A stretch of 64,000 nt of DNA from Dehalococcoides mccartyi. Lineage in GTDB: Bacteria > Chloroflexota > Dehalococcoidia > Dehalococcoidales > Dehalococcoidaceae. The notes beneath the pieces are model-generated. The model made no database searches, had not been told where the DNA came from, and saw only the letters and a program-made list of their open reading frames with translations. Below are positions 39,137-60,437 of this stretch, one piece after another. Location of the stretch: NCBI RefSeq assembly GCF_001889305.1, contig NZ_CP013074.1, positions 1,240,001 to 1,304,000 of the forward strand, in the 5' to 3' direction. Within the stretch, counting starts at the first letter, position 1. Each line of letters starts with the position of its first letter. The translations under genes were made by a program, and so were the position numbers.

Positions 39137-39228
39137 TGGCGGAGGGGGAGGGATTCGAACCCTCGACCCCGGTTTCCCGGGGCAAGCGCTTAGCAGGCGC
39201 CCGCACTAGACCACTATGCGACCCCCCC
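39137..39228 (-). tRNA. tRNA-Ser (anticodon GCT)
   Basis: On the minus strand: a 7-bp acceptor stem (seven G's pairing CCCCTCC with one G-U), a D-arm, an anticodon loop CTGCTAA with anticodon GCT at 39192-39194, a long class II variable arm (CCCCGG / CCGGGG), a T-arm (GAGGG-TTCGAAT-CCCTC) and an encoded 3' CCA. It reads AGC and AGU. It lies between mscL and mutM. Confidence 0.95.
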
Positions 39229-52905: not shown

Positions 52906-53943
52906 TTATTCATCCTTGTCAACAGGTGCTTTACCGTAAAGCTCGGCAACCAGAGTGCTCATAACCAGAGACAAATAACTGACCGCTGACAATGCTCTTT
53001 CATAGGCCATACGGGTAGGCCCTATCACTCCAATAGTACCCACTGCTTCGTCCGGTATACCGTACTGGCTGACTATCAGACTGTAATCACGTATCTCAGC
53101 AGAAGCATTTTCTTGCCCGATGTATACCTGCACGCCCCGGTTAAAAGGTGCAGGCGGTGCAATCATCTTGGAAAGCTTTTTCTGCTCAAGCAGCTGCATT
53201 ATCTCCTGAACCCTTTGGTTCTGGTGGAATTCGGGTTGTTCAAGCATATAGTGCAACCCGTCAAAAAACGGCTCACGGCTTTCCTGCTCGTCTTCACCCC
53301 GCATCATCTTTACCAGACTGTCCCTGACTTTGAGTTCATCAGGGTTAAGATTAAAAAGCTTTTGCTCTATCTGGAAACGGGTCAAGCCAGCGTAGGCATC
53401 ATTCAAGCGGTTGGATATAAGCGTAAGCTCGGGCTGGGAAACAGTATCCTCAAAGTTTATAAGCTGCTGCTTTACCTTGGCGCCGCGCAGTATCAACACT
53501 ACCAGCACCAGATTATCCTGCAGGCTGACCAGCTCAATATGATGCACTTTGCCCTGTGTCTGGCGAGGCATGGTGACAACAGCCATGCTCTGTACACGCT
53601 GTGAAAGGACTGCTACCGTCAGGTTCAGCCATTCTTCCATCTCTTTTTCAACCTGATGAAAAAGGTGGCGGATAAGAAACTTGTCATTGGTGGGCAGTTC
53701 CACATCTTTCAGGGATTCCACGTAATAACGATATCCCTTGTCAGCCGGTATACTGCCGGCAGAGTGATGGGGACGGAGAATATACCCCTCGGTTTCCAGC
53801 CGGACTACCTCATTCCGTATAGTGGCAGAACAAATATCCAGACCGCAATCTTCCAGTATGGAAGATGACGAAACCGGCACCGCTTTGGTTATGTACTGCC
53901 TTACTATAGAACGCAGTATTATCTCTGCCCGTGATGTTAGCAC
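52906..53943 (-). CDS. hrcA: Heat-inducible transcription repressor HrcA
   Basis: HrcA binds CIRCE operators and represses chaperone genes. The 345-residue protein begins at GTG 53943 and has an N-terminal winged helix (ILRSIVRQYITKAVPVSSSS, then ATIRNEVVRLETEGYI), followed by a GAF-like domain (GTIGVIGPTRMAYERAL near the C-terminus). It is first in the operon with a CIRCE site just upstream, so it represses its own operon. Confidence 0.94.
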   Translation of the reverse strand: MLTSRAEIILRSIVRQYITKAVPVSSSSILEDCGLDICSATIRNEVVRLETEGYILRPHHSAGSIPADKGYRYYVESLKDVELPTNDKFLIRHLFHQVEKEMEEWLNLTVAVLSQRVQSMAVVTMPRQTQGKVHHIELVSLQDNLVLVVLILRGAKVKQQLINFEDTVSQPELTLISNRLNDAYAGLTRFQIEQKLFNLNPDELKVRDSLVKMMRGEDEQESREPFFDGLHYMLEQPEFHQNQRVQEIMQLLEQKKLSKMIAPPAPFNRGVQVYIGQENASAEIRDYSLIVSQYGIPDEAVGTIGVIGPTRMAYERALSAVSYLSLVMSTLVAELYGKAPVDKDE

Positions 53944-53945
53944 TC
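53937..53945 (-). promoter_or_regulatory. Extra CIRCE half-site on the hrcA start codon
   Basis: GAGTGCTAA on the minus strand, an exact CIRCE half-site and the direct repeat of the CIRCE right arm 11 bp downstream of it. It contains the GTG start of hrcA. Confidence 0.5.
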
Positions 53946-53956
53946 TTGCTACCTCG

Positions 53957-53983
53957 TTAGCACTCTGTTGGTTAGTTTGCTAA
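53957..53983 (-). promoter_or_regulatory. CIRCE operator
   Basis: TTAGCAAAC, a 9-bp spacer, and GAGTGCTAA on the minus strand. The right arm is exact and the left arm matches 7 of 9 of TTAGCACTC. It lies a few bases after the predicted transcription start (near 53986), the classical location for HrcA repression. Confidence 0.85.
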
Positions 53984-54072: not shown

Positions 54073-54101
54073 TTGACCCTCTGAAAGGGGTCTGATATAA
54101 T
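54073..54101 (+). promoter_or_regulatory. Promoter of the MBL-fold gene
   Basis: TTGACC (54073-54078), a 17-bp spacer, TGA and TATAAT (54096-54101). The -10 ends 8 bp before ATG 54110, so the mRNA is probably leaderless. Confidence 0.7.
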
Positions 54102-54109
54102 TCAGCCAT

Positions 54110-54742
54110 ATGGAAATTAAATGGTTAGGTCACTCGTGCTTCCGCCTTAAAGGCAAAAATACTACTGTAATTACTGATCCGTTTCCCCCGAATCTGGGGT
54201 ATGCGATGGGCAAACAGAGTGCTGAGGTAGTTACTGTAAGCCATGCCCATACCAATCATTCGTTTACCTCAGCTATTGACGGTAATCCCCGCATTGTCAG
54301 CGGACCCGGTGAATATGAAATCGGAGATGTCATCATTCTGGGTCTTTCCACCTTTCACGATGACTCCAAAGGCAGTGAACTGGGTAAAAACACTGTTTAC
54401 CAAATGGAGATAGACGACCTGTCCATCTGCCATCTGGGAGATATCGGCCAGGGGCTGACTGACAGCCAGATTGAAGAGCTGGGACGGGTGGATATACTCC
54501 TTCTGCCGGTTGGCGGCGGAAATGCCATCAGCCCAGGTAAGGCCGCCGAAATCATGCGAAAACTGGAGCCGTCCATTGTTATCCCAATGCACTTTCAGAG
54601 TGATTTATCAACCAGCTCCCTTTTGCCGATAGGCCAGTTTCTAAAGGAAATAGGGTTAAACAGTCTTGAACCCCAAGCAAAGCTGAATATAACCAGAGGC
54701 AATTTGCCTGTTACCACCCAGGTTATGTTACTGCAGCCATAA
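54110..54742 (+). CDS. MBL-fold (metallo-beta-lactamase-like) protein with altered metal motif
   Basis: A 210-residue member of the Lactamase_B_3-type group: MEIKWLGHSCFRLKGKN, ITDPF, then SHAHTNHSF, GPGEYEIGDV, and PMHFQSD near the C-terminus. The metal motif HxHxDH is HAHTNH here (Asp to Asn), so metal binding or catalysis may be changed. Family members include UPF0173-like hydrolases with unknown substrates. It has a near-perfect promoter and no ribosome-binding site. The caspase-like gene follows after 41 bp. Confidence 0.78.
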   Translation: MEIKWLGHSCFRLKGKNTTVITDPFPPNLGYAMGKQSAEVVTVSHAHTNHSFTSAIDGNPRIVSGPGEYEIGDVIILGLSTFHDDSKGSELGKNTVYQMEIDDLSICHLGDIGQGLTDSQIEELGRVDILLLPVGGGNAISPGKAAEIMRKLEPSIVIPMHFQSDLSTSSLLPIGQFLKEIGLNSLEPQAKLNITRGNLPVTTQVMLLQP

Positions 54743-54783: not shown

Positions 54784-56313
54784 ATGCACTACCTGAAACG
54801 GGTTACCATTTCCCTTATTCTGGCTCTGGGTCTTACCGCAGGGCTTCTTCCCCAAACACCGCTTGCGGCTGCCTCCTCACATGAATACTGGGCGGTAGTA
54901 GTAGGCATATCCGATTACCAGAGAATTACAGATGTAATAGGCCTGGCTAACGGCGCCCAGAAATTTGCTGATTCTCTCAAGGAAGCCTGGGGTGATGACC
55001 ACGTAACGCTGCTGACCAACAGCAACGCAGACAAACACTCTATAAAGTCAGCCCTGGACTGGATGATAAACCAGGAAGATGACAATGATACGGTGGTCTT
55101 TTTCTTTGCCGGACACGGCGACAGCCATTCATATATAGCCCCTTATGATGCTTATTACGCCTCGGAGTGGATTTCCAGCCAGGAGCTTTCAAACTGGCTT
55201 TTGCCGCTGGAGTCTCACTATCAGGCTGTGATACTGGAATCCTGCTACTCAGCCAGCTTTGCAGATGATTTAAACCAGCCAGGGCGTATAATCCTGTATT
55301 CTTCACTTGCTGCGGAAGTTTCCTGGGCGGATGGAGACAGCGGGCTTTTTTCCGGATATATAAATGACGGACTAAGCTATATACCCAATGCAGATATAAA
55401 CAGCGATAACATCATATCTCTGGAAGAGCTTTTTTACTACGCTCAGCCACGTACTACAGACGAATCCCGAATAACTTCCTCTCTTCAGCACCCGTTCCTG
55501 TCGGATGGAATAGGCGGAGAGCTCAGCCTTATCGGCAAACTACTATTAACGACCTCCATACCTATATCAGGCAACTATAACTATCTAATAGTAGACGGCA
55601 GAACCTATTCACTCAGCACCACACAATTTAACTTTACCCCTGGCACAACTCATGAAGTTACCGCTTTAAATATAGAAACCTTTCCTGGTATCCGTTATTT
55701 CTTTAAAAACTGGGCGGATGGAATTACTTCAGCCAGCCGCTCATTTACCAGCGGTGCAAACCTGCAAGCGGTTTATTCGCGCCAGTATCTTTTAACCATA
55801 GACTCCCCTACTTCAGCGGTTACCGGCGGTGGCTGGTATGACCAAAACACATTTGCCAATCTTTCCGCCCCGAATATTGAAGAGGGCGGCATACGCTATA
55901 TATTTACCGGCTGGAGCGGAGATATTACCGGGCCTTTTGAAAGCACCCGCCTTGTGATGGATAAACCAAAGACAGTCAAAGCCAATTACGACACCGAATA
56001 CCGGCTTTTGCTATCTTCGCCCTACGGCACACCTGACGGCGGAGGATGGTATGCCGCAGGCAGCACTGTAAAGCTAAGTGCACCCTCAGCACAAGGGTTT
56101 TTAATCCGCCAGGTATTTGAAAGCTGGAGCGGGGATTACACCGGTACAGATGCAAGTGCAGTCATCACCCTTAGCAAACCAATGAACATAACCGCCAATT
56201 TCAAAGCAGACTATACTTTCCTGTATATTGCCGTTGGATTAGGGGCAGTCATGATAATCTGGCTGATACTGGCAATATCCAAACGCCGCAAGAACTATTA
56301 CAATACTATCTGA
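54784..56313 (+). CDS. Exported caspase-like protein with beta repeats and C-terminal membrane anchor
   Basis: The 509-residue protein starts with a signal peptide (LILALGLTAGLLPQTPLAAA, residues 11-30), then a C14-type caspase domain (~35-230) with H111 in FFFAGHGDS and C154 in LESCYSASF forming the expected His-Cys dyad. About residues 310-480 hold three copies of a Gly/Trp repeat (GWYDQNTFANLSAPNIE, GWSGDITGPF, GGGWYAAGSTVKLSAPSAQ, WSGDYTGTD), the bacterial divergent InlB/Flg-type repeat. A span near 478-498 and a basic tail end it, so the caspase domain faces outside. Substrate is unknown. It could be a surface protease or self-processing adhesin. Confidence 0.82.
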   Translation: MHYLKRVTISLILALGLTAGLLPQTPLAAASSHEYWAVVVGISDYQRITDVIGLANGAQKFADSLKEAWGDDHVTLLTNSNADKHSIKSALDWMINQEDDNDTVVFFFAGHGDSHSYIAPYDAYYASEWISSQELSNWLLPLESHYQAVILESCYSASFADDLNQPGRIILYSSLAAEVSWADGDSGLFSGYINDGLSYIPNADINSDNIISLEELFYYAQPRTTDESRITSSLQHPFLSDGIGGELSLIGKLLLTTSIPISGNYNYLIVDGRTYSLSTTQFNFTPGTTHEVTALNIETFPGIRYFFKNWADGITSASRSFTSGANLQAVYSRQYLLTIDSPTSAVTGGGWYDQNTFANLSAPNIEEGGIRYIFTGWSGDITGPFESTRLVMDKPKTVKANYDTEYRLLLSSPYGTPDGGGWYAAGSTVKLSAPSAQGFLIRQVFESWSGDYTGTDASAVITLSKPMNITANFKADYTFLYIAVGLGAVMIIWLILAISKRRKNYYNTI

Positions 56314-56357
56314 CAAACTATTCCCCGTGTTTGAGAAAAGGACAGCTTAAAGCCCGC

Positions 56358-56855
56358 ATGGAAGCATATTTAGATATTGAAACAACCGGTCTTTCCCCCT
56401 ATCAAGCAGACCTGACAGTCATCGGCATCCACCTGGTAAATGGCAGTTCCATACCGGGGCTGATTCAGTTGGTAGGCAAAGAATGCACCGCAGAGAATGT
56501 CATGCTATCTCTTGCGGGTGCGGATACACTATATACTTATAATGGCAAAGGCTTTGACCTGCCGTTCATTCACCGCAAACTGGGAATAGACCTGAGCCGC
56601 CATTTCAATCACCGTGACCTTATGTTTGACTGCTGGGCTAAAAACCTTAAGGGCGGACTGAAGAAAGTGGAATGTCAATTGGGTATTCCACGCGAGCTGA
56701 CCGAGGTAAATGGTTACGTTGCTGTTCAGCTATGGTGGAACTACATAAACAAGGCTGATACCGGGGCGCTGGAAACATTGCTAGCCTACAACCGTGAAGA
56801 TATAGTAAACCTTAAAACCCTTAAGGACATATTATTAAATAACTGTACCTATTGA
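56358..56855 (+). CDS. RNase H-fold 3'-5' exonuclease-like protein (YprB-type)
   Basis: From ATG 56358 it is 165 residues and begins MEAYLDIETTGLSPYQ, with Asp/Glu of exonuclease motif I (DIETTGL). A second acidic site is NGKGFDLPFIHRK and a third is YNREDIVNLKTL. This is the predicted RNase H-like fold (PF13482). An in-frame TTG at 56331 adds nine residues. No partner helicase is present. It follows the caspase-like gene by 44 bp (17 bp if the TTG is used). DNA or RNA substrate is unknown. Confidence 0.75.
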   Translation: MEAYLDIETTGLSPYQADLTVIGIHLVNGSSIPGLIQLVGKECTAENVMLSLAGADTLYTYNGKGFDLPFIHRKLGIDLSRHFNHRDLMFDCWAKNLKGGLKKVECQLGIPRELTEVNGYVAVQLWWNYINKADTGALETLLAYNREDIVNLKTLKDILLNNCTY

Positions 56856-57085: not shown

Positions 57086-57289
57086 TTCCATTAAAGTCTG
57101 TTTCAGGCCGATATCCTCACCCCCCAGTTTGCCATTTCAGACGTTTTTCTTTTCTTTTCAGCCTAACTCTTTGCCGTCATTCAAAATGTCCAGTTTTATC
57201 CTGTAGCCATTTTCAGACGCTTGTTCTTACTTTATGTAGAGTTTGTAAATCTTAAATCATTCCAAATTTAATATTCCATCCAAAATATA

Positions 57290-57315
57290 AGAGCCCCCCG
57301 TTTCCGGGGGGCTCT
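57290..57315 (-). terminator. Terminator of the surface-protein gene
   Basis: AGAGCCCCCCG and CGGGGGGCTCT form an 11-bp stem with a 4-nt loop, 45 bp after the stop on the minus strand. A T-tract on both sides allows two-way use. Confidence 0.8.
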
Positions 57316-57359
57316 TTGGTTACTTTCGGACCGTTAGTCCATTTTCACTTTGTAGTTTA

Positions 57360-60300
57360 TTAGACTACGCGGCGAGTGCGAACAATCAGGACGATTACAG
57401 CGACGGTCAGTACAGCACCGACAGCCACAATCAGCCAGATGTAGGCAGGAGTTTCAGCCTGAGGTACGGTCAAAGTGATAGCCGGAGGATTATTGACCTC
57501 TACCGGGGCTGCATCAGCCTTAACGGTGGTAAAGACAGCCGGGAACCATTCACTGGTGCTGTTGGCGGTATTGACGCGAACCTTCCAGTAGTAGCTGGTT
57601 GAGTTGCTCAAAGTGCCGTCATATGCCCAGTAATTGGTGGTCAGGTTCTTGGTAGCCAAAACCTTGGTAGCATCAGCGAAGGTAGGATCGGTGCTGAGTA
57701 CGAGGTCATAGCTGACAGCAGTAGAAACTGAATCCCAGGCGAATACGGGTTTAACGGGTACGTTGGAAGCACCGTTGGTGGGCATCAGGTTGAAGGTGTA
57801 GGTCAGTTTTTCGGGCTGGGTGGAGACTGAAGCAGTACCCACGAAGCTCATGACCGGGCTGACAGCCCAGACGCTTACCTGGTAAACGGTGTCTTCAGCA
57901 ATCACGAAGGCACCAACGCCATCTTTAAAGGTGGCAGAAAGAGTAGTGATACCATTTTTCTGGTTGACATCAGCAGCGGTAACAGTGTAGGCAACTTTGT
58001 AAGCGGTGGCATTATCAGTCACAACCACAAAGTACTTAACAGTCACATTGCTGTTATCAACAACCAAAGCGTCCCAGGTTACCTTGATAGAATCAACGGT
58101 AGAGGTAGCTTTGACGTTGGCTACGGGTACAGCCATCTTGTCGGTGTAAACATACAGCTCGGCACCAAAGATACCATACAGCATGTTAGCACCGGGGGCA
58201 GCAACACCAATCAGTTTGGTAGCAGTGCCAGTAGCGGTGGAAGGACCAGCAATAATGCCAGCCTTGTAAGAAAGACCGACATTAGTAATGCGGATTACGT
58301 TGTCCCAAGTACCATCCAGTACATACAGGACGTTTCCGCCGGAAGCAATACCAGAGAAGATACCAACGCCGTTGTCAACATCAGCATAGCTGCTGCTGTC
58401 AAAGGCATAAGCACCGGTAACTGTATTGTCAATCCGTGTCCAAACAGGAGCGGCAGCAGCGAAGTCATAAACGTATGCCGCACCGCCATTACCAGTGAGA
58501 TAGACTACGCTGTTAGAACCATTCTGGAAAGTTACAACAGGTACGGATGAAGCAATAGTTGTAGCAGCAGTAGCGGTACCCCAAGTAATGCCACCATCAA
58601 CTGATTTGGATATCGCGCTGTCAGAACCGGCGGCTACCAAGGTAGAACCGTCAGTTGAAACGGCAAAGGAGGTAACAGTGCCAACAGCACAGGCGCGGCC
58701 AAACCAGAGAACACCATTGGTGCTGGTCTGGTAGACAACATTATCGCCGCCGACCAGGATAGTGTTGGCATTGGAAACGAACCATGATTGAATTGTAGCA
58801 CCACTGTCAACAGTGGTAATGCTGCTTACCTGAGCGGTGAAGGTCTGGCCGTTATCCAGTGAACGCCAGATAGTGGTTCCACCGAGGTCAGCTACGAATA
58901 CAGCGTCACCAGCGGGTGAAACGGCAACATCAATGTCGCCATCTTCGTCAATAGAAGTGGTTGAGAGAACGCGCTCGTAAACGCCACCGGAAAGACGCCA
59001 GAGACTCTGCTGAGCATAGTCACTGGTAACAATGAACAAGCTGCCGGCAATATTGTCAACGCTGACAATAGCCTGGCGCATCATGGAAATCTGATTCCAG
59101 GTTTTGCCGAAGTCAGCAGTGTAAGAAACACCACAGTCATAGCCGCCGGTACCAGCAAGAGCTTTACCGGAGGTAGCGAAGTCAGCCAGAGCCAAAACGG
59201 TTACTTCCTCATCATACCAGCTATCCTCACCGGTAGGAGCTTTGCTGGTCTTGGTGAAGGTAAGGCCGTCAGCAGAATACCATGTATTGGGACCATAGGC
59301 CATAGAATTCAGATAACCACCGATAATCAGTTTGGCAGTGCCAACGCCGCCGGCGCCGTCAATGTCAGAGACTTCGGTTTCGGTGTCAAGACCGCTGACG
59401 TTAAGGTCAATGGTCTTGGTAGCGCCGCCGTACCACAGGTAGACGTCACCCTGTCCACTGAAAGTGGCAAGGGCAAGCCAAGCCTGGAACTTGCCGGAGG
59501 TCAGGCTGGAGTTGAAGTCAGAGGGCAGCCAGAGTTCGGCATGGTAAACGCCATCAATAGAGCCAAAATCTTCATCATTGCTTACCAGTACTTCTGCATC
59601 TTTGCAGAGGGATGTCTGGTTCCACTGATTGCCGAAGTATTTGGCGGTAATGAAGGTGTTGTTGGCATTGTCTTCGGCAACAGCAATAACGCCCTGTTTG
59701 GTGGCGAAGTCAGTGGGGTCAACCACTACGTCCCAAACATTGCAGTCAGGAATACCCATGGTAGTCCAGTCATGGCCCTGGGTAGCAATGGAGAGGTCAG
59801 ACCAGGGCATACCGAAAGCGGTTTCCTGGCACATATATACGCCGTTAACACCAGTGGTGCCGAAGGAGGCAGTACCGGTGAAGACGTATTTGTTGGCGCC
59901 GGCATAGCCGACATCCAGGGTTACGATAACGCCGGTAGGCTGGTTAGCCCAGTCATTATCATCAGCCCAAATGTATACATTGGACAGCTTGTTCCAGGTT
60001 ACACCGCCGTCTTTGGTGGAGAAGATGTCATAACCGTCAGTGAAGTAAACTTCATTGGCGTTGACGCTGGAAGCGCAGATATCAAAGATATAAGCGTCAC
60101 CATAAGGGGAAGCAAGATTGGCAGTTACACCATCCTGGAAGACCATTTTCCAGGTGCGGCCGGCATCAGTGGATTTAAAAACGCAGGGTGAGCCGTCATA
60201 TATGGTAGTGGCATAAACGGCAGTTTTATCTGCGTTCCATTCCAGCTGACCGATAGCATCAAAGCGAGCACCGGGAGTGCTGACTACATAGCCGCCAGTT

Positions 60301-60437
60301 GCGCCGGAGCCAGGCAGGGAGATTTTGCTCCAATCCTGGTTGGCAGCAGCTACGGGGGTAGCGACTGCGAACATGGAAAGAACCATGGCAGCAGTCAGGA
60401 CTACGCCCAGAACTTTACTTATTTTTGTCTTAAACAT
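57360..60437 (-). CDS. Large BNR/Asp-box surface protein with C-terminal membrane anchor (S-layer-like)
   Basis: This 1025-residue protein has a signal peptide (1-32, ending VAAAN), then repeated BNR/Asp-box-type blocks of a beta-propeller (KSTDAGRTWKMVF, STKDGGVTWNKLS, SLDNGQTF, SVDGGITWG), then two fibronectin-type III-like domains (~790-880 and ~890-985), and a C-terminal span (~995-1018) with a basic end (RTRRVV). Such proteins are reported as very abundant cell-envelope proteins in Dehalococcoides (established knowledge, from memory), probably the S-layer. A long leader precedes the ATG at 60437. The Ser/Thr/Gly/Val-rich composition and Asp-box turns fit a beta-propeller surface coat. 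Confidence 0.85.
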   Translation of the reverse strand: MFKTKISKVLGVVLTAAMVLSMFAVATPVAAANQDWSKISLPGSGATGGYVVSTPGARFDAIGQLEWNADKTAVYATTIYDGSPCVFKSTDAGRTWKMVFQDGVTANLASPYGDAYIFDICASSVNANEVYFTDGYDIFSTKDGGVTWNKLSNVYIWADDNDWANQPTGVIVTLDVGYAGANKYVFTGTASFGTTGVNGVYMCQETAFGMPWSDLSIATQGHDWTTMGIPDCNVWDVVVDPTDFATKQGVIAVAEDNANNTFITAKYFGNQWNQTSLCKDAEVLVSNDEDFGSIDGVYHAELWLPSDFNSSLTSGKFQAWLALATFSGQGDVYLWYGGATKTIDLNVSGLDTETEVSDIDGAGGVGTAKLIIGGYLNSMAYGPNTWYSADGLTFTKTSKAPTGEDSWYDEEVTVLALADFATSGKALAGTGGYDCGVSYTADFGKTWNQISMMRQAIVSVDNIAGSLFIVTSDYAQQSLWRLSGGVYERVLSTTSIDEDGDIDVAVSPAGDAVFVADLGGTTIWRSLDNGQTFTAQVSSITTVDSGATIQSWFVSNANTILVGGDNVVYQTSTNGVLWFGRACAVGTVTSFAVSTDGSTLVAAGSDSAISKSVDGGITWGTATAATTIASSVPVVTFQNGSNSVVYLTGNGGAAYVYDFAAAAPVWTRIDNTVTGAYAFDSSSYADVDNGVGIFSGIASGGNVLYVLDGTWDNVIRITNVGLSYKAGIIAGPSTATGTATKLIGVAAPGANMLYGIFGAELYVYTDKMAVPVANVKATSTVDSIKVTWDALVVDNSNVTVKYFVVVTDNATAYKVAYTVTAADVNQKNGITTLSATFKDGVGAFVIAEDTVYQVSVWAVSPVMSFVGTASVSTQPEKLTYTFNLMPTNGASNVPVKPVFAWDSVSTAVSYDLVLSTDPTFADATKVLATKNLTTNYWAYDGTLSNSTSYYWKVRVNTANSTSEWFPAVFTTVKADAAPVEVNNPPAITLTVPQAETPAYIWLIVAVGAVLTVAVIVLIVRTRRVV

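Follow-up and report, generated by a model that had tools for sequence, protein, structure and literature searches.

A predicted outward-facing, membrane-tethered caspase-like protein with InlB-type repeats in Dehalococcoides mccartyi

The prokaryotic orthocaspases (Peptidase C14, PF00656) combine a caspase-type domain with a His-Cys dyad, and some of them are likely to be exported (PMC3501461). A survey published in 2012 covered 671 prokaryotic caspase homologues, of which 142 were placed and 529 were without information; the 142 comprised 98 membrane, 30 extracellular and 7 intracellular proteins and 7 that were both membrane and extracellular, and in most of the 98 a helix at the N-terminus is possibly a signal peptide (PMC3501461). 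The survey also counts 104 proteins with membrane helices and 46 in which the domain follows a single N-terminal helix, maybe a signal peptide, and many of the domains associated with caspase homologues seem extracellular (PMC3501461). An EF-hand motif has been reported in 7 archaeal orthocaspases, and the two S1-pocket Asp residues of metacaspases are described as highly conserved, also in pseudo-orthocaspases (PMC6426788). The literature cited here on bacterial caspase homologues deals mostly with cyanobacteria and cell death. Other proteins with this fold are the type I and II metacaspases (yeast metacaspase-1, Arabidopsis metacaspase 4, T. brucei MCA2), many metacaspases being calcium-dependent, the paracaspase MALT1, in which a beta domain follows the caspase domain, and legumain and GPI transamidase (Peptidase C13), both of secretory location. 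The InlB B-repeat (PF18998) is a repeat of surface proteins.

Here we describe a caspase-like protein of Dehalococcoides mccartyi, encoded in a window (the whole stretch of DNA analysed, 64,000 nucleotides) of a 1.52 Mb genome in a single contig. Its domain content, dyad, model fold, repeats, hydropathy, conservation and synteny were computed. The gene and its parts are as follows.

54784..56313, + strand: caspase-like gene, an exact ORF with an ATG start, 509 aa (Pfam, orthologues, dN/dS)
54784..54873, + strand: predicted signal peptide, residues 1-30, predicted cleavage between LAAA and SSH (rule-based scan)
54883..55542, + strand: caspase-type catalytic domain, residues 34-253 (PF00656, PF01650, model matches)
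54952..54954, + strand: G57, at the place of the first S1-pocket Asp, Asp95 of TbMC2 (family alignment, metacaspase placement)
55114..55116, + strand: catalytic His H111, in AGHGD (aligned with the family His)
55237..55239, + strand: E152, at the place of the second S1-pocket Asp, Asp211 of TbMC2 (family alignment, metacaspase placement)
55243..55245, + strand: catalytic Cys C154, in ESCYS (alignment; the sole Cys in 509 aa)
55393..55428, + strand: EF-hand-type loop DINSDNIISLEE, residues 204-215 (pattern scan; between two predicted helices)
55552..55782, + strand: beta repeat 1, degenerate, residues 257-333 (self-alignment, model)
55783..55995, + strand: beta repeat 2, InlB B-repeat type, residues 334-404 (PF18998, self-alignment, model)
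55996..56214, + strand: beta repeat 3, InlB B-repeat type, residues 405-477 (PF18998 on residues 415-475, self-alignment, model)
56218..56277, + strand: predicted C-terminal membrane span, residues 479-498 (hydropathy; model helix 482-508)
56278..56310, + strand: basic tail SKRRKNYYNTI, expected to be cytoplasmic (sequence; positive-inside rule)

Pfam assigned PF00656 to residues 36-192 with 45.9 bits (cut-off 21.4) and PF01650, Peptidase_C13, with 27.2 bits (cut-off 22.8), so that the protein resembles both peptidase families but scores lower with C13 than with C14. The score with the EACC1-associated caspase model NF047832, 43.7 bits, lay below its cut-off of 140, and the protein was not assigned to that family. 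PF18998 reached 38.4 bits (cut-off 23.6), with two stretches each above the cut-off alone, and a degenerate third repeat precedes them, visible in the self-alignment and modelled as beta strands. A preliminary description of this DNA had claimed a complete His-Cys dyad, H111 and C154, ahead of three beta repeats and a C-terminal span. Each of these elements was recovered: both dyad residues are present, in a domain above the Pfam cut-off, and the repeats and the span are seen by Pfam, self-alignment, modelling and hydropathy.

A model of the full protein, built from a five-row alignment (mean pLDDT 70.5, pTM 0.45), shows a core of caspase type, then several beta units, and a helix at the end; its quality is highest over the domain's first half and in repeats 2 and 3, and poor at the signal peptide and in parts of 203-283. 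With VIA-align the top match was Arabidopsis metacaspase 4 (6w8r; Z 22.7, 208 residues, 2.5 A), followed among others by legumain (Z 20.3), MALT1 (Z 19.6) and GPI transamidase (8imy_K; Z 19.1), and the solved-structure matches to this predicted model span residues 32-257, with Z 19-23 among the best 50 matches listed. Ranked by Foldseek E-value on the full model, MALT1 came first (3uo8_B, 1.0e-9), and it shares with our protein the order of caspase domain and beta domain; however, superposition of the two domains together was poor (rmsd 19 over 416 columns), and by VIA-align MALT1 falls behind the metacaspases and legumain. When the domain was modelled alone (pLDDT 72.4, pTM 0.79) the top match was unchanged and the ranking similar. 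Since the matches extend over residues 32-257 and persist in the domain-alone model, the whole caspase fold, beyond the half that carries the dyad, is likely to be present. A search of the PDB with the single sequence gave no match at E 1, but the profile of the family did find metacaspases, which are its best solved matches.

Metacaspases are the best solved matches by VIA-align as well, and the window protein differs from them in its predicted export and tethering and in the different EF-hand-type calcium motif that its sequence suggests. It is unlike the orthocaspases in its InlB-repeat stalk, its C-terminal anchor, and G57 and E152, and unlike the InlB B-repeat surface proteins, with which it shares the repeat family, in joining these repeats to a protease domain. 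Exported homologues were already reported in 2012, so export by itself is not new (PMC3501461); the earlier framing of this protein as an exception to a cytoplasmic norm is supported as to its predicted export and too strong as to its exceptional status. What appears to be new is the combination of an InlB-repeat stalk and C-terminal anchor with an EF-hand-type loop and a changed S1 pocket, in a little-described family. The open-access literature searched held no description of the window protein or of this stalk, anchor, EF-hand and S1 combination.

All three regions of a signal peptide can be read in the N-terminus, MHYLKRVTISLILALGLTAGLLPQTPLAAASSH: K5 and R6, a hydrophobic stretch at 7-22, and an AxA-type site. 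Signal peptides were called by a home-made rule that also accepts other membrane proteins; it passes 11 of the 51 window ORFs of at least 150 aa, among them the caspase-like protein, the BNR-repeat protein described below and proteins of membrane or pilin-like type, and so cannot separate signal peptides from N-terminal spans. Of the 33 family proteins of the class it passes 27, and of 23 matches in the phylum's other classes, 3; these three outsiders are borderline, with the caspase domain 200-380 residues away. Note that two of the family proteins (L022 and L051) are 5'-incomplete and were counted as lacking a signal peptide, and that two outsiders (L107 and L124) are also incomplete. At the other end of the window protein, the highest 19-residue hydropathy (2.65) lies at 480-498 and is followed by KRRK; under the positive-inside rule, a basic tail after a span is expected in the cytoplasm. 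With a signal peptide at one end and a span plus KRRK tail at the other, the protein should expose its catalytic domain to the outside; it is probably exported and held outside the cell, anchored in the membrane on a stalk of small beta domains. The rule-based secretion signal and the hydropathy of the span therefore support the outward-facing, anchored caspase domain proposed earlier. Across this Dehalococcoidia family, predicted export is the rule and tethering a sub-theme.

Between two predicted helices, residues 204-215 fit the loop DxNxDxxxxxxE; residues 203-208 of the model are under pLDDT 50. Pfam gave no EF-hand match in the window protein at E 1, and weak ones in its orthologue L003 (15.0 bits; cut-off 25.9). 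A strict EF-hand pattern picked out 11 of the 56 family proteins, 10 from this class, where shuffles lead one to expect 0.14. A plain loop pattern, sought in the domain's second half, was present in 18 of 33 class members (3.4 expected), every one of the 10 tethered proteins included, and in 1 of 23 outsiders (0.8 expected). Since the proteins share ancestry, these counts are not independent. The loop at 204-215 suggests that the protein may be under calcium control. As for the S1 pocket, the two Asp residues used as the orthocaspase criterion for Arg/Lys specificity are absent from the window protein, the Glu that stands for one of them still being acidic and the Gly not. G57 and E152 are found in all three genus members, whereas among the 30 family proteins outside the genus the first place holds Asp in 25, the second in 22, and both in 18 (placement compared with the yeast and Arabidopsis metacaspases). 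With one S1 Asp replaced by Gly and the other by Glu, Arg/Lys specificity should not be assumed, and the predicted specificity is probably not of the plain Arg/Lys type.

The gene is present in all three genus genomes examined, the other two orthologues being 86% and 84% identical. Pairwise dN/dS among the three is 0.10-0.13 for the whole gene, which places it under purifying selection; by part, the catalytic domain has 0.075-0.101 and the repeats 0.077-0.104, with looser selection on the signal peptide and span (0.28-0.55). Class-wide, 33 of 393 genomes gave a match at E 1e-10 or better. The family set, also of 33 proteins, consists of 30 of 40 class matches, duplicates removed, together with relatives from other searches. 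The dyad, whose retention in homologues was the check set for the earlier claim, is kept in 30 of the 33. The tethered build, in which a long extension follows the domain and carries a span at or near the C-terminus, was seen in 10 of the 33: the window protein, L003, L004, L005, L006, L041, L043, L047, L050 and L022. For L041, L043, L047 and L050 the repeats were read from how far each aligns with the window protein. By Pfam, the repeat match of L006 narrowly misses the cut-off (23.5; cut-off 23.6), and no repeat match was obtained for L022 at E 0.1. In a quick tree that carries no support values, one clade holds 7 of the tethered proteins, the remaining 3 of the 10 lying elsewhere among untethered relatives. 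Relatives on viral contigs are remote (24-34% identity) and cytoplasmic-looking by eye.

Several relatives are of interest in their own right. The proteins L006 (1387-2925) and L041, from other Dehalococcoidia, look like receptor-like pseudo-orthocaspases. PMC6426788 does not name this bacterial class for such proteins; it lists three in the phylum, from other classes. Their Tyr/Ser in place of His/Cys is the same replacement as in the cyanobacterial YS pseudo-orthocaspases, the placement of the Ser being likely rather than certain given an alignment gap around it in both. On a 6 kb contig (L102, G413:C5) two caspase-like open frames adjoin, one of which matches the caspase family in two pieces inside a single open frame. 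The genome of the window itself encodes a second protein with three InlB-type repeats (L127, 1203-2630; G000:C1, about 92.7-94.1 kb), with a span ahead of the repeats by eye and no other Pfam domain at E 0.1; the ORFs beside its gene have an ABC-transporter-like reading.

The caspase-like gene lies within a likely three-gene unit, near which the following features were placed.

54073..54101, + strand: promoter-like site TTGACC-17-TATAAT (11/12 matches)
54110..54742, + strand: MBL-fold hydrolase gene, first of the likely three-gene unit (PF13483, 175.5 bits)
56331..56855, + strand: RNase H-like exonuclease-type gene, third of the likely unit (PF13482, 138.5 bits)
57360..60437, - strand: BNR-repeat surface protein (ORF, Pfam, relatives; S-layer role from PMC5102406, PMC6646388)

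The order hrcA, MBL, caspase, exonuclease-type, BNR is the same in the three genus genomes, and in all three the MBL and exonuclease-type genes flank the caspase gene. The MBL gene adjoins hrcA in this genus and in 2 of 4 sister-genus stretches. In the 8 sister-genus genomes the MBL and exonuclease-type genes are far apart or on different contigs, and neither was found in the stretches around five more distant relatives. Among the genomes checked, the trio thus occurs together only in the three of the genus, and with adjacency so restricted these neighbours say little about function. The nearby MBL-fold and exonuclease-like genes of the preliminary description are accordingly confirmed as neighbours within the genus, while a functional link through them was rejected. 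The promoter-like site has a TG before its second hexamer and ends 8 bases ahead of the ATG of the MBL gene, and its hexamers are identical in the three genus genomes, though promoter-like sites in the region are not above shuffles (8 against 6.2). Judged by where this site lies, the transcript of the MBL gene may have little or no leader. Upstream of hrcA, at 53937-53983, TTAGCACTC occurs as two direct copies, both identical in the three genus genomes, the second within a CIRCE-like inverted repeat (53957-53983) with 2 mismatches. Heat-shock control of the caspase unit was considered and rejected, the CIRCE-like element being on the hrcA side and the unit having its own promoter-like site. 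Between the convergent exonuclease-type and BNR genes, a hairpin of 12 pairs, 9 of them G-C (57289-57316), scanned as terminator-like on both strands. At gathering thresholds Rfam found only a tRNA (39140-39228) in the window.

The BNR protein, which had been proposed as a substrate, is probably a homologue of the putative Dehalococcoides S-layer protein DET1407, which is reported to be among the most abundant proteins of Dehalococcoides (PMC5102406, PMC6646388). One published S-layer peptide (PMC6646388) is absent from the BNR proteins of the window, G001 and G002, and stretches merely similar to it are seen in those of the window and G002. Across the order, few parts of the BNR protein are as well conserved as its C-terminal end (57363-57512, - strand), which holds the span and the RTRRVV tail and reaches 50-70% identity in several genomes. 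That the caspase-like protein is the dedicated maturation protease of this neighbour gains something from the two being surface-like proteins with a C-terminal span, encoded close together in the three genus genomes, and from L022, whose N-terminal Ig-like match is to the Pfam family of the BNR C-terminal region (below cut-off in both). However, the distribution of the two shows no association: among 61 related genomes a BNR match, sometimes partial, was found in 50 and a caspase domain in 11 (17 matching genomes minus 6 matching by repeats alone), and the BNR match is present in 9 of these 11 and in 41 of the 50 others (Fisher odds ratio 0.99, p = 1). In the sister genus 8 of 8 genomes have the BNR match and only two (G003 and G005) a caspase match, neither of them tethered, one protein (L015) starting directly with the domain and the other (L010) being a short form without a signal peptide by the rule. 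Moreover, a third gene separates the BNR and caspase genes, which are convergent, and dN/dS of the BNR gene is 0.27-0.32, two to three times that of the caspase-like gene (the other three neighbours have 0.02-0.06). S-layer processing as the main role was rejected on this distribution, and a dedicated BNR protease seems to us quite unlikely; the S-layer would not need this protease, with occasional cleavage possible.

Other readings of the protein have been weighed. That it is a receptor or scaffold, using the caspase fold for binding and not for proteolysis, we judge unlikely. Loss of the dyad in 3 of the 33 family proteins does show that the caspase fold can persist without proteolysis: besides the tethered L006 and L041, the untethered L051 lacks the dyad, and after the span L006 has a zinc ribbon (29.6 bits, cut-off 25), with a similar Cys pattern in L041 by eye. 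In the window protein and both its genus orthologues, however, the dyad is retained under purifying selection that is strong, and the tail beyond the span is no longer than about 11 residues. We find it most improbable that the protein is a transpeptidase for the attachment of surface proteins, working in the manner of GPI transamidase. PIG-K/GPI8 has the same order of parts as the window protein (signal peptide, caspase-type domain, C-terminal span), and in addition to the model match given above the family profile matches GPI transamidase 9ub7_C (8.9e-7, profile positions 67-193), but metacaspases beat it in both profile and fold. A C-terminal sorting tag shared with clients in the genome was also rejected: the BNR tail matches itself alone, with no clear relative elsewhere in the genome (next E 0.117), and without a second copy no set of tagged clients is seen. 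A role in cell death, competition or defence against phages, as proposed for other bacterial caspase homologues, is very unlikely, even though such roles have been discussed for extracellular caspase homologues (PMC3501461). A PADLOC scan of three proteins matched the 'caspase' model over the first 129 of its 453 positions (40.4 bits) and gave the exonuclease-type neighbour a weak CRISPR-associated DEDDh match (20.6 bits); a defence-gene reading was rejected. The other near neighbours are, by eye, hrcA, grpE, dnaK, dnaJ, the BNR gene and rho, and a location outside the cell fits badly with an abortive-infection effector.

We think it likely that the window protein acts as a cysteine endopeptidase of the caspase/legumain clan, tethered to the membrane and facing outward, possibly calcium-dependent, and not as a dedicated processor of the BNR/S-layer-like protein. 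Its topology, activity, calcium control and specificity are what we infer in the following scheme. The signal peptide would carry the protein across the membrane, and the C-terminal span and basic tail would retain it there; the InlB-type repeats may form a stalk that lifts the caspase domain off the membrane, and the H111-C154 dyad would cleave proteins at or near the cell surface. The EF-hand-type loop would probably bind calcium, leaving the enzyme inactive until it is outside. A more far-reaching proposal, which we hold to be unlikely, is that Dehalococcoidia have a stalked, outward-facing caspase-fold family of their own, activated outside the cell by calcium through the EF-hand, with Arg/Lys specificity abandoned in the genus, that processes or joins surface proteins in cells not known to have a peptidoglycan wall and has become in some lineages a set of dead Tyr/Ser receptors signalling through a cytoplasmic zinc ribbon.

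A family that looks mainly extracytoplasmic, and purifying selection in a small genome, point to a surface role for this protein and not to suicide. It would be a predicted surface protease in Dehalococcoides, a genus used to clean up chlorinated solvents.
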